The notes below the pieces were generated by a model, which saw only the letters and a program-made list of their open reading frames with translations, did no database searches and was not told where the DNA came from. Positions 52,626 through 64,000 of a stretch of 64,000 nt of DNA are shown here, in pieces. The position numbers and the translations under genes are program-made. The stretch covers positions 18,972-82,971 of the IMG/VR virus record IMGVR_UViG_3300046004_000818; one strand, 5' to 3'. Within the stretch, counting starts at the first letter, position 1. Every line of letters begins with the position of its first letter. Origin of the DNA: a virus.

Positions 52626-53183
52626 TTACTTCTTAGCAGCCTTCTTTGCCACTGTCTTCGTAGCAGGTTTTACAACCTGTTTAGCAATGGCCTTAAGAGG
52701 CTTTGTAGGTGCCTTTGCAGCCACTTTAGCTTTGGCTGGTGCCTTGGCCTTGACCGACGCTTTTGGCGCGGCCTTGGCTGTTTTTGTAGCCACCTTTGTG
52801 GCTTTTGCGGGGGCTTTCACCACCTTAGTAGCCGCTTTCGTGGCCTTTACAGGCGCCTTCTTCGGGGCAGCTTTCTTGGCAGCAGGCTTTGCCTTTGGCG
52901 CAGCTTTGGCCTTCGGAGCAGCCACAGTCTCGACAGGTGTAGCCACAACAGGTGCCGGGCGACCGTCATCCAAGGGCAACTTCGTACGCTTGTCACGGAT
53001 GACGCAGTACAGAGGGTTGTCAGGGTTCTCGATGAAGAACACCAACTTCTTGCCGCGAGTCGATGGGTTCGCTGCATGGATAGCGGCGAAGATACGGCGC
53101 TTTTCAGATTTCCGAGCATAGCGATCCATGCCACGGGTTTTCAAGAGGGCTTCGGCTTGTTGGGTTGTGATAGTCATTTGCAT
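52626..53183 (-). CDS. Histone H1-like Ala/Lys/Pro-rich DNA-binding protein
   Basis: The ATG at 53183 follows AGGA, so 11 upstream codons are rejected. The N-terminal 85 residues form a small domain (TTQQAEALLKTRGMDRYARK, RRIFAAIHAANPSTRGKKLV, LYCVIRDKRTKLP). Residues about 95-185 are almost only Ala, Lys, Pro, Thr and Val with AAPKKAP-type repeats, like eukaryotic H1 tails and bacterial H1-like proteins. It should bind DNA or RNA non-specifically and might compact phage or host DNA. Confidence 0.82.
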   Translation of the reverse strand: MQMTITTQQAEALLKTRGMDRYARKSEKRRIFAAIHAANPSTRGKKLVFFIENPDNPLYCVIRDKRTKLPLDDGRPAPVVATPVETVAAPKAKAAPKAKPAAKKAAPKKAPVKATKAATKVVKAPAKATKVATKTAKAAPKASVKAKAPAKAKVAAKAPTKPLKAIAKQVVKPATKTVAKKAAKK

Positions 53184-53301
53184 GATACGTTTTCCTATTA
53201 AAAAGGATGGAGTCAAATTACCTAGAGGCGTCTAGGCAGCGTTCGCTAGAGTCAACTAGCAGAAGGGTTGAGGCACTAGCCCCGCACTGGTAGCGGGGTT
53301 T

Positions 53302-60872: not shown

Positions 60873-61094
60873 CTAGTAGTGCCCGTCACGCATGACTAGA
60901 GGGTCAAGGCTGTACACGAAACCGTTAGGGCTTGAACTACCTACAGAACTGCCTGCAGGAAGGAAGCAAGTGGCGTCTATGCTTGCGTGATTCTCTTGGA
61001 GAAAATCAAATCTAAGACTATTCTTCACATTGACTGTGCCTGTATGTGAACCGGGCACAGTGATTAACGTCTTGCCATTTGTGAGTAGTTTCAT
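60873..61094 (-). CDS. Hypothetical protein
   Basis: The ATG at 61094 follows GAGG. The 73-residue product (SLRFDFLQENHASIDATCFL, then a Ser/Gly stretch) is beta-rich. The start overlaps the stop of a GTG-initiated gene. Confidence 0.6.
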   Translation of the reverse strand: MKLLTNGKTLITVPGSHTGTVNVKNSLRFDFLQENHASIDATCFLPAGSSVGSSSPNGFVYSLDPLVMRDGHY

Positions 61095-61225
61095 GCTGCA
61101 CCTCGCGCCATGTAGGTGACGACAGCTTTTGCGTCCATTGCAAAGGCGCAGAATTGCGCCCATGTGAGAGGCTTGAAGCCTTCGATGCTGGCATTGACAC
61201 AATGCCTTGCGAATAAGTATTCCAC
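61091..61225 (-). CDS. 44-residue protein, GTG start
   Basis: GTG with AAAGG six bases upstream. The product begins MEYLFARHCVNASIEGFKPL. Its stop overlaps the next ATG. Function unknown. Confidence 0.55.
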   Translation of the reverse strand: MEYLFARHCVNASIEGFKPLTWAQFCAFAMDAKAVVTYMARGAA

Positions 61226-61274
61226 GATATACCTTTCAAAATCTAGGGGTCTGCCTAGTCAGTCTGTGTGAGTA

Positions 61275-61418
61275 CACAAAGGACAGGCTCTAGGCCTGTG
61301 CTTTAGATACTACAAGGAAGGGTCTGCAAGCCTTTCCAAGCGTCCCCACAAAGGACAGGCTCTAGGCCTGTGCTTTAGATACTACAAGGAAGGGCCTGCA
61401 AGCCTCTCCAAGCGTCCC
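61275..61418. repeat. Tandem 72-bp duplication
   Basis: Two adjacent 72-base copies differ at only two positions, both in a GGAAGGG/CCTTTCC hairpin where the changes keep the pairing. Each copy contains an ACAGGC/GCCTGT hairpin and the 3' end of the 61-residue gene, so copy one is a remnant of that gene's tail. The changed positions are transitions. Confidence 0.92.
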
Positions 61419-61567
61419 CACTTGAATACTACGTGCTGCACCTCTCGCCCTTCCTTGAGGGCCTCAGAGACAGCTTTAAGCCCTTGCATATAAGCTGCAT
61501 TCAGGGCCTGTTCAGTCAGGCTCAGGCTTGGAATCTGACGCTCCAAGAACGTGCACTGATAAGCCAT
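61382..61567 (-). CDS. Hypothetical protein
   Basis: A 61-residue protein (LTEQALNAAYMQGLKAVSEA) ending in KWGRLERLAGPSL, inside the second copy of the 72-bp repeat. It starts two bases past the upstream stop. Confidence 0.58.
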   Translation of the reverse strand: MAYQCTFLERQIPSLSLTEQALNAAYMQGLKAVSEALKEGREVQHVVFKWGRLERLAGPSL

Positions 61568-61568
61568 A

Positions 61569-61754
61569 CTAGACTGCACGTATCTCTACGATACCGTTCC
61601 GCAAGTCTCTGTCTGTGACCACATATTTGTGATCTTTGAGCAGCGTTCTTACTGCTTGCTCATTCTCAGGCAGCATACTCAGATGAACCCGGACATTTCT
61701 GACAAAGTTAATATCAGTGCACAGAGTTGTTAAGAGAATATTTAGAGTGTGCAT
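61569..61754 (-). CDS. Hypothetical protein
   Basis: A 61-residue protein (NVRVHLSMLPENEQAVRTLL). AAGG lies seven bases before the ATG. Function unknown. Confidence 0.58.
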   Translation of the reverse strand: MHTLNILLTTLCTDINFVRNVRVHLSMLPENEQAVRTLLKDHKYVVTDRDLRNGIVEIRAV

Positions 61755-61763
61755 ATGTTCACC

Positions 61764-62018
61764 TTAACAGATATACACGTTCAACTTACCCGGATTCTCC
61801 CACTCGCAGAATAAGCCCTTGCTTGTCAAGGTATCGTCGATCTTGGGGCTTACACCAAAGATTCCCCAAGATTGGCAGTAGTACTCTGCCCATGTCTCTT
61901 GGTCGTTTTCTTCAGCACTGATGCTGAAGTTTCCATAAGCTGTGTTGTTGTCATTGACAAACACCGGGCAACCCATTTTTTTCAGCGCATTAAACGCTGC
62001 TACATATACCTTCTTCAT
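61764..62018 (-). CDS. Hypothetical protein
   Basis: An 84-residue protein (YVAAFNALKKMGCPVFVNDN, later QETWAEYYCQSWGIFG). It begins with the TTGAAAGGTAT ribosome site and is the first gene after the structured leader. Confidence 0.62.
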   Translation of the reverse strand: MKKVYVAAFNALKKMGCPVFVNDNNTAYGNFSISAEENDQETWAEYYCQSWGIFGVSPKIDDTLTSKGLFCEWENPGKLNVYIC

Positions 62019-62044
62019 ACAATACCTTTCAAGTTAAACTACTA

Positions 62045-62321
62045 CCACAAAGTAAAGCCCTGACTAGCAGGGCTTCTGGCTTTGTGGCCTGAACTAGGTT
62101 CAAGCCAACTCGGTCTGTCTATCTATCCGTTAGCTGCGCTGACCATTGAAGCGCGTTTAGTCGGTTCACTTTGCCACGCCAACCATTGAGGCGTACTTAC
62201 TACAACCAGTGCAGTAGAAGGGACTCACAGCGAATCCCCTAATGACTTCCATCAAGCTGTCATTAAACTTGTCTCTTACTCTACCCAGAGACTTGATTTA
62301 TCCGTTACACGCCACGGATAA
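62045..62321. ncRNA. Candidate structured non-coding RNA or leader: an array of hairpins
   Basis: Consecutive stems are: CCACAAAG/CTTTGTGG (62045-62087) enclosing AAGCCCTG/CAGGGCTT, TGAAC/GTTCA (62090-62102), GCGCT/AGCGC (62136-62154), ACGCC/GGCGT (62176-62194), TAATGAC/GTCATTA (62240-62265), GTCTCT/AGAGAC (62271-62292) and TTATCCGT/ACGGATAA (62298-62321). The third and fourth share the loop RACCATTGA, lie 40 bases apart and have different but complementary stems. No open frame crosses the region. It could be a 5' leader or an independent RNA. I cannot tell the strand. Confidence 0.5.
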
Positions 62322-62615
62322 CACGGCGTTACATACTTGTCAGGTATGGTTTATCGTATGGTTAACGTATCTCCCATTTAGACTATGCGAGACTGTCTGA
62401 ATCTATAAAGTAAGCGGTTAAGCAAACTATTTTAGAGACAGGTTATCCCCTAGCGGTCGTCAATACGTCCCATTGTGATAAACAACATCATTGATTACTT
62501 ATCTAGTACGGGACTTGGGAGAACTGCCACTGTCAACCCAAGGATCATAAATAATCGCTGATTTCTACTATTCTTTAGACTGAGTTTGTCCCTATACCCT
62601 ATATTGTAGGGTTCT
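62322..62615. other. Non-coding gap
   Basis: No usable open frame. It has a near-tandem TATGGTT repeat (62345-62367) and an ACCCTA/TAGGGT hairpin just before the 14-base array. A minus-strand TTGACA (62531-62536) has no -10 partner. Confidence 0.5.
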
Positions 62616-62719
62616 AGAGCCTGACTGCCAGAGCCTGACTGCCAGAGCCTGACTGCCAGAGCCTGACTGCCAGAGCCTGACTGCCAGAGCCTGACTGCCA
62701 GAGCCTGACTGCCAGAGCC
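62616..62719. repeat. 14-base minisatellite, seven copies plus six bases
   Basis: AGAGCCTGACTGCC is repeated perfectly. Open frames through it are artefacts of the repeat. One more copy lies reversed at 60698-60711. Confidence 0.95.
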
Positions 62720-62808
62720 AAAATCAATCACCAAACCTGACCTACGTTTAGACCAAAGCAAAGCCAAAGCAGAAGCAAAGACTAAGCAAAGATCAAACCC
62801 TGCCGGGA

Positions 62809-62878
62809 AATGCTGTAATCAGCATTATTGAAAGCATACAGTCTAATCCTGACTAAGCAGGATTAGGGTTTATGCTTT
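62809..62878 (-). terminator. Two hairpins after the Ala/Lys/Glu-repeat gene
   Basis: AAAGCATA and TATGCTTT (62831-62878) enclose CTAATCCTG/CAGGATTAG. The minus-strand order then reaches AATGCTG/CAGCATT (62809-62826). The first hairpin overlaps the stop codon. T-tracts are weak. Confidence 0.65.
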
Positions 62879-63623
62879 AAGCTGTGACAGACTCCAAAGT
62901 GACTAACAAAGCTTTGGCGGCTTCGGCGGCTTCGCCCATTCCGCTTGCGTCAATTTGCAACATTTTGATTTTGTGGGCGGCTTCGGCTTTGGCTTCGGCT
63001 TCGGCTTTGGCTTCGGCTTTGGCTTTGGCTTTGGCTTCGGCTTTGGCTTTGGCTTTGGCTTCGGTTATAGCCGCTTGGATACTGTCCAGTTGGGCAGTAT
63101 CCAGCATTCCGGCCTCGATCAAGTCATTGAAAGCCGCAACAAACTCCAAAGCTGTAAACGGGCGTACAGTATTGCGGGGAACCAGATCGAGCCGCAATAC
63201 TTCGGCTTCAAATTCAGCCTTGGCCTTGGCTTCGGCCTTGGCCTTGGCTTCGGTTTTCTTTTCTTCGGATTGTGGGACTTTCACTCCCAAGGGTGCCACA
63301 GATTCGGCGAAGCTTGTTTCAGCTTTGCTGATAACGTCAAGCCAATATGCTAAATCCTCTGCCGGTTGATCGTCAAACCCGACACCCTTTGGCGCCAAAT
63401 AGCCGACCTTGATATGATCCGTAGCCGCGCTGATAGCCGCTAATATGACCTTACCCTTGGCAGTCTTGCCACAATTCAGTACGGCATTGTTTAATCCAGT
63501 CCGGTTATTTGACCGAATAAACATTGTGAAAGCTTCGCTGAATGACTCATTCAGCAAAGCTTTAGAAGCTTCATTGTTACCGACGACAGATGCGACGACA
63601 GATGCAAAATTGATTTTAGCCAT
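62877..63623 (-). CDS. Protein with two Ala/Lys/Glu repeat segments
   Basis: The 248-residue protein has a normal alpha/beta N-terminal domain (residues 1-120), a charged helix (TEAKAKAEAKAKAEFEAE), a second compact part (FTALEFVAAFNDLIEAG) and a longer helix of alternating Ala with Lys or Glu (residues about 187-218). Such segments form single charged alpha-helices. It is the first gene of the leftward block here, has its own promoter and attenuator-like hairpin, and may be an early linker or DNA-associated protein. Function unknown. Confidence 0.75.
   Translation of the reverse strand: MAKINFASVVASVVGNNEASKALLNESFSEAFTMFIRSNNRTGLNNAVLNCGKTAKGKVILAAISAATDHIKVGYLAPKGVGFDDQPAEDLAYWLDVISKAETSFAESVAPLGVKVPQSEEKKTEAKAKAEAKAKAEFEAEVLRLDLVPRNTVRPFTALEFVAAFNDLIEAGMLDTAQLDSIQAAITEAKAKAKAEAKAKAKAEAKAEAEAKAEAAHKIKMLQIDASGMGEAAEAAKALLVTLESVTA

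Positions 63624-63785: not shown

Positions 63786-64000
<215 letters not shown>

Follow-up and report, generated by a model that had tools for sequence, protein, structure and literature searches.

In antisense control of the satellite-phage or P1/P7 c4 type, a partner acting in trans is complementary to the loops. In phage mRNA operators of the T4 gene 32 type, an H-type pseudoknot precedes the start codon and the gene downstream encodes an autogenous repressor. The TwoAYGGAY motif is pictured as two hairpins with the same loop motif, and GOLLD and ROOL RNAs are carried by phages.

The put RNA of phage HK022 is about 70 nt long, acts in cis on the transcript and consists of two long stem-loops that lie close behind an early promoter, within an early-operon leader (PMC9378689). 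It comes in two versions, putL and putR, found near two promoters, and suppresses termination in cis via the zinc-binding domain of RNA polymerase (PMC9378689). In the mRNA of T4 gene 32, the operator is a small pseudoknot that precedes the gene; it stands as a single element next to a start region rich in UUAAA, and the operators of relatives have diverged strongly in sequence (PMC535899). The candidate RNA TwoAYGGAY has, to go by its name, two conserved AYGGAY elements (PMC2864571). GOLLD and ROOL are described as large, structured, ornate non-coding RNAs (PMC12286853).

The window analysed here is the whole stretch of 64,000 nucleotides and covers bases 18972–82971 of an 82971-base virus record. 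The proteins match phage terminase, portal, capsid, tail, DNA polymerase, primase and helicase families, and the source is an unclassified 83-kb phage. The closest viral-contig relatives of the DNA polymerase are 51–53% identical to it, and a DNA polymerase search of genome contigs found no relative. The two ends of the record (window 63882–64000 and L215:1–134) run into one common (CCAGACA)n array; thus the record probably represents a circular map that was cut within the repeat. The stretch L215:150–900 is non-coding, contains two DnaA-box-like TGTGGATAA sites and TATACACAA inverted repeats, and is a possible replication origin. At window 52626–53216 a 196-aa Lys/Ala/Pro-rich protein is encoded, which resembles histone H1-like tails.

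Genes run leftward from about 21.5 kb through the right end, and two of them are separated by the long spacer that holds the hairpins (Table 1). No convincing reading frame was found in the spacer on either strand. Because all neighbouring genes run leftward, the RNA to consider is that of the minus strand, which is the more likely transcript strand; the sequence-only reading of this DNA had taken the plus strand. The region gave no promoter signal above chance, and promoter-like sites are no commoner there than in shuffles. Protein searches returned no close relatives of the flanking 248-aa and 251-aa proteins. The 84-aa protein downstream has no family match, and its relatives occur in Roseobacter phages CRP-13 and CRP-207, in phage DSS3_MAL1 and at 75 places in viral contigs. 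These relatives point towards phages of Rhodobacteraceae.

The sequence TTGAAAGGTAT is found three times in the genome (window 62032, 61239 and 60682, minus strand), each time just 5′ of a leftward start, and is likely a shared ribosome-binding leader. In an intergenic gap at window 61275–61421 a 72-base sequence stands twice in tandem; the copies are 97% alike and have inverted repeats within them.

Table 1. Features of the spacer and its flanking genes (window coordinates)
Feature	Position	Strand	Sequence or description	Basis
Downstream leftward gene, 84 aa	61764..62018	-	relatives in Roseobacter phages and 75 viral contigs	
Non-coding leader/spacer holding both hairpins	62019..62876	-	858 bases between two leftward genes	
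Long two-part hairpin just before the 84-aa gene	62045..62087	-	CCACAAAG...CUUUGUGG, inner GAAGCCCUG...CAGGGCUUU; weak terminator-like tail	
GACCGA tail of E3	62110..62115	-	GACCG pairable with loop UGGUC	
Hairpin E3 (first in the earlier reading)	62136..62154	-	minus-strand RNA GCGCU-UCAAUGGUC-AGCGC; plus-strand form GCGCT-GACCATTGA-AGCGC; arms 62136-62140/62150-62154, loop 62141-62149	sequence and covariance-model match
AACCGA tail of E2	62161..62166	-	AACCG pairable with loop UGGUU; candidate H-type pseudoknot, zero-nt junction	
Hairpin E2 (second in the earlier reading)	62176..62194	-	minus-strand RNA ACGCC-UCAAUGGUU-GGCGU; plus-strand form ACGCC-AACCATTGA-GGCGT; arms 62176-62180/62190-62194, loop 62181-62189	sequence and covariance-model match
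Candidate H-type pseudoknot E1	62298..62329	-	ACGCC/GGCGU stem and 8-bp second stem UUAUCCGU/ACGGAUAA	
Seven 14-base tandem repeats in the spacer	62616..62719	not assigned	AGAGCCTGACTGCC	
Inverted repeat just past the 248-aa gene	62831..62878	not assigned	terminator-like	
Upstream leftward gene, 248 aa	62877..63623	-	Lys/Ala/Glu repeats	

The sequence-only reading described two hairpins with different stems and a near-identical loop, 40 bases apart from start to start, and both are present exactly as described. On the minus strand both loops read UCAAUGGUY. The arms had been said to differ and yet stay complementary, and they do so: two of the five stem pairs differ, each by a double compensatory change (A-U/G-C and C-G/U-A), no change breaks the pairing, and the other three pairs are invariant. 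The likeness reaches past the loop, with 18 of 24 aligned positions alike (75%). Since the similarity exceeds the loop and the stem changes compensate, it is reasonable to regard the two as paralogous, as had been claimed. Coming from two sequences only, the compensatory changes are suggestive rather than strong evidence; their count was equalled in 108 of 500 shuffles, a weak control with n = 2. Shuffles would lead one to expect 0.8 copies of the 9-mer RACCATTGA as such in the window, which has seven; the five further sites (window 2212, 2916, 13608, 34424 and 37298) are all on the minus strand and have no stems.

The window contains 122 perfect hairpins with a 5-bp stem and a 9-nt loop, one strand counted. 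We scanned for pairs of perfect 5-bp stems with loops of 8–12 nt, at most 200 nt apart and with no more than one loop mismatch. E2 and E3 are the sole such pair within the 64-kb window, and 60 dinucleotide shuffles (3.8 Mb) produced zero pairs. From about 2.1 Mb of other phage-derived and viral DNA, the scan returned three distinct pairs whose stems differ, one of which falls in this phage's own capsid gene. The real-sequence background is about 0.1 pair per 64-kb window, a rate that is only approximate because part of the background DNA was fetched by loop pattern. At this rate a chance origin of the pair is unlikely but conceivable.

The main rival explanation is a chance or neutral likeness, in which a hairpin- and repeat-rich spacer gained the pair by local duplication and the loop has no specific function. 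It has to be taken seriously, though we hold it to be doubtful. About three comparable pairs in 2.1 Mb, including the one in the capsid gene, speak for it, and the spacer and its surroundings are full of duplications, among them the 14-base array and the two 72-base copies. The local folding z near zero and the absence of a homologue anywhere searched point the same way. However, both stem differences are compensatory, the 60 shuffles contain no pair, and RACCGA with a matching first base follows each hairpin. If the pair is not real, it shows that hairpin-rich phage spacers yield look-alike pairs, roughly one to two per megabase.

The RACCGA sequences lie 3′ of the hairpins on the minus strand, 9 nt past the E2 stem and 20 nt past the E3 stem. 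The first base of RACCGA agrees with the variable loop base, giving UGGUU/AACCG for E2 and UGGUC/GACCG for E3. The single loop difference would be explained by pairing with the candidate tail, because the first base of the tail matches the variable base. RACCGA is otherwise sparse in the genome: uniform base use would predict about 81 sites on the two strands together, and there are 31. Of the 244 hairpins in the window, 56 (23%) are followed within 25 nt by a tail capable of five pairs; in other loci the share is 17%. The 5-bp stem of the candidate E1 is the same as that of E2, and its loop differs. At scores of at least 24, the candidate-pseudoknot total of the leader is within the shuffle range and does not exceed the highest shuffles. 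We regard the pseudoknots as possible structures.

Compared with dinucleotide shuffles, the minus strand of the spacer is predicted to fold better, with z −5.0 for 62019–62880 and z −4.6 for 62019–62620; for 62019–62580 the value is −3.8 on the minus strand versus −1.8 on the plus strand. The excess is not exceptional for this genome, in which 4 of 32 random windows have a z lower than that of the leader. In the immediate surroundings of the hairpins the predicted folding is unremarkable (z −0.4 to −0.5), and the minimum-energy fold of 131 nt of the minus strand lacks both hairpins and prefers another structure. The case for the hairpins is the repeated pattern, not energy. The earlier description of the pair as RNA elements is plausible because the hairpins sit in a non-coding stretch whose gene strand, the minus strand, out-folds shuffles; the folding excess, however, is not unusual for the genome.

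In DNA form both hairpins are inverted repeats as well, and tandem arrays are close by. The pair could thus act at the DNA level, as protein-binding sites or as single-strand initiation hairpins near a replication control region; the contig junction is no more than about 2 kb from the spacer, and on its other side are DnaA-box-like TGTGGATAA sites and AT-rich repeats. We consider this explanation unlikely. Conservation of the loop combined with compensatory variation in the stems is more in keeping with a single-stranded fold than with recognition of a duplex, and the minus strand folds better than the plus strand.

An AUG stands at the same place in both loops, and short frames follow, MVGVAK and MVSAANG, each ending in a stop. 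The two AUGs might be leader-peptide starts of short upstream reading frames, which we regard as very improbable: neither AUG is preceded by a ribosome-binding site, the copies show no excess of synonymous changes, and nothing convincing matched the longer frame around E2. The idea that the repeat (KYASMV/KRASMV) arose as coding sequence was weighed and dropped.

Searches with the covariance model R1 for a third copy in the 83-kb genome and in seven related contigs, and for copies at 75 loci of the 84-aa gene, gave chance-level matches only. The matches that we read in context, at L202:5149, L196:4307, L304 and L310, were rejected as copies, all being within coding sequence. When viral contigs were scanned with loop-pair and stem-anchored patterns, the count among the matches listed is about the chance estimate, and none of the matches listed has two stemmed loops outside this genome. 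A DNA similarity search of phages and plasmids returned nothing convincing. The sequence-only reading had proposed a pattern search for further stem-RACCATTGA-stem elements; among the matches listed, no third copy or homologue appeared in the genome, in relatives or in the viral, phage and plasmid collections. Because no homologue was found in any collection searched, there is no independent covariation. As for an antisense partner, no 12-base stretch of the hairpin region recurs elsewhere in the genome on either strand, so the search yielded no phage-encoded partner of that length; 9-base loop matches do exist elsewhere, without stems.

Among the 69 relatives of the 84-aa gene that were checked, nearly all closely trail another reading frame and are thus operon-internal, with no such leader. 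None of the 69 has a shared-loop pair upstream; therefore, the hairpin element does not travel with the 84-aa gene.

Two relatives, G002 and G006, have spacers at what looks like the corresponding place. In G002, a 966-nt non-coding stretch (L201:16220–17185) with z −5.4 comes after a leftward Ala-rich gene beside the terminase genes. A similar place in G006 has a 226-aa low-complexity gene, a long hairpin and a folded stretch with z −5.7 over 311 nt; a 12-base tandem array is nearby, and the contig nearly ends there. Both folded stretches directly follow a low-complexity gene near the terminase-side junction. Because G002 and G006 also carry a strongly folding non-coding stretch there, the group as a whole may be marked by a folded spacer here, to judge from three genomes. 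BLAST detected no sequence relation between the G002 spacer and the window spacer, and the upstream proteins of the relatives show no significant match to the 248-aa protein (BLASTP E 0.15 or worse). Orthology of these upstream genes is judged by position and composition only.

The tandem arrays of two spacers share GGCTCTG, within a 14-base unit at window 62616–62719 (reverse strand) and within the 12-base unit GTGGCTCTGCCC of the relative at L207:12499–12666. CTTRCG occurs seven times in the G002 spacer L201:16220–17185, against about 0.6 expected from its genome. It was rejected as an analogous shared-loop motif, since the copies are not at equivalent hairpin positions.

The stretch might also be a free-standing structured non-coding RNA and not a leader, like the large ornate phage RNAs. 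Its length of 858 nt, the whole-region z of −5.0, the long hairpins at both ends and the similar stretches, unrelated in sequence, in two relatives would suit such an RNA. Nevertheless, we find it quite improbable. An Rfam scan of the whole window at the gathering threshold returned one tRNA only, and a scan of 61000–63000 at E up to 10 returned two chance-level matches and no TwoAYGGAY, GOLLD, ROOL or tmRNA; the stretch has no strong promoter or terminator and is not conserved in sequence between relatives.

We tentatively favour, with a confidence somewhat short of even, the reading that the pair is a locally duplicated, structure-constrained, cis-acting element in the folded minus-strand untranslated leader of the leftward gene block. 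The leader RNA would be a fast-evolving one. The element would be transcribed from the minus strand, and each copy could close into a small pseudoknot by pairing the loop UGGUY with the RACCG that follows. The pair would work in cis, giving the nascent transcript or the mRNA a recognition element with two sites. In the likeliest mode, the element would be bound by a protein of the phage or the host, or else by RNA polymerase itself, and the binding would tune the read-through or the translation of the following genes.

We counted for the leader reading the 858-base non-coding gap, the leftward flanking genes, the compensation, the uniqueness of the pair, the minus-strand folding, the RACCGA tails and the spacers of G002 and G006. 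Counted against it were the lack of a homologue, the ordinary local z, the 131-nt fold without the hairpins and the 4 of 32 windows with lower z, as well as the tails on 17–23% of hairpins with 5-bp stems and 9-nt loops, the operon-internal relatives of the 84-aa gene, the lack of a promoter signal and the weak upstream orthology.

A broader proposal, which we rate as rather unlikely, is that the phage group keeps a long folded RNA by place and not by sequence, between the first leftward gene and the rest of the block, and that here tandem pseudoknots with one shared loop dock a putative regulator. If real, the pair would represent a compact RNA control element with two sites, in a lineage of phages that is poorly known. 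It would also be a handle on a position-conserved, sequence-free leader RNA of a kind that similarity searches miss.

Compared with the known systems, the locus departs from c4-type antisense control in that no 12-base stretch of the hairpin region recurs in the genome on either strand and the 9-base matches lack stems. It differs from GOLLD and ROOL, to which the region has no Rfam match, and from TwoAYGGAY, since the loops here are AUGGUY and not AYGGAY and there is no Rfam match at E 10. A phage mRNA operator such as that of T4 gene 32 is comparable in placement and may have a parallel in the candidate pseudoknots E1, E2 and E3 upstream of a gene, which differ from it in being candidates only, with such tails common (17–23%). 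The put RNA of HK022 differs in that the present locus has two 5-bp hairpins with a shared loop, and promoter-like sites at shuffle frequency. Yet here too two hairpins lie in a putative leader position, and in this placement the locus is comparable to put.
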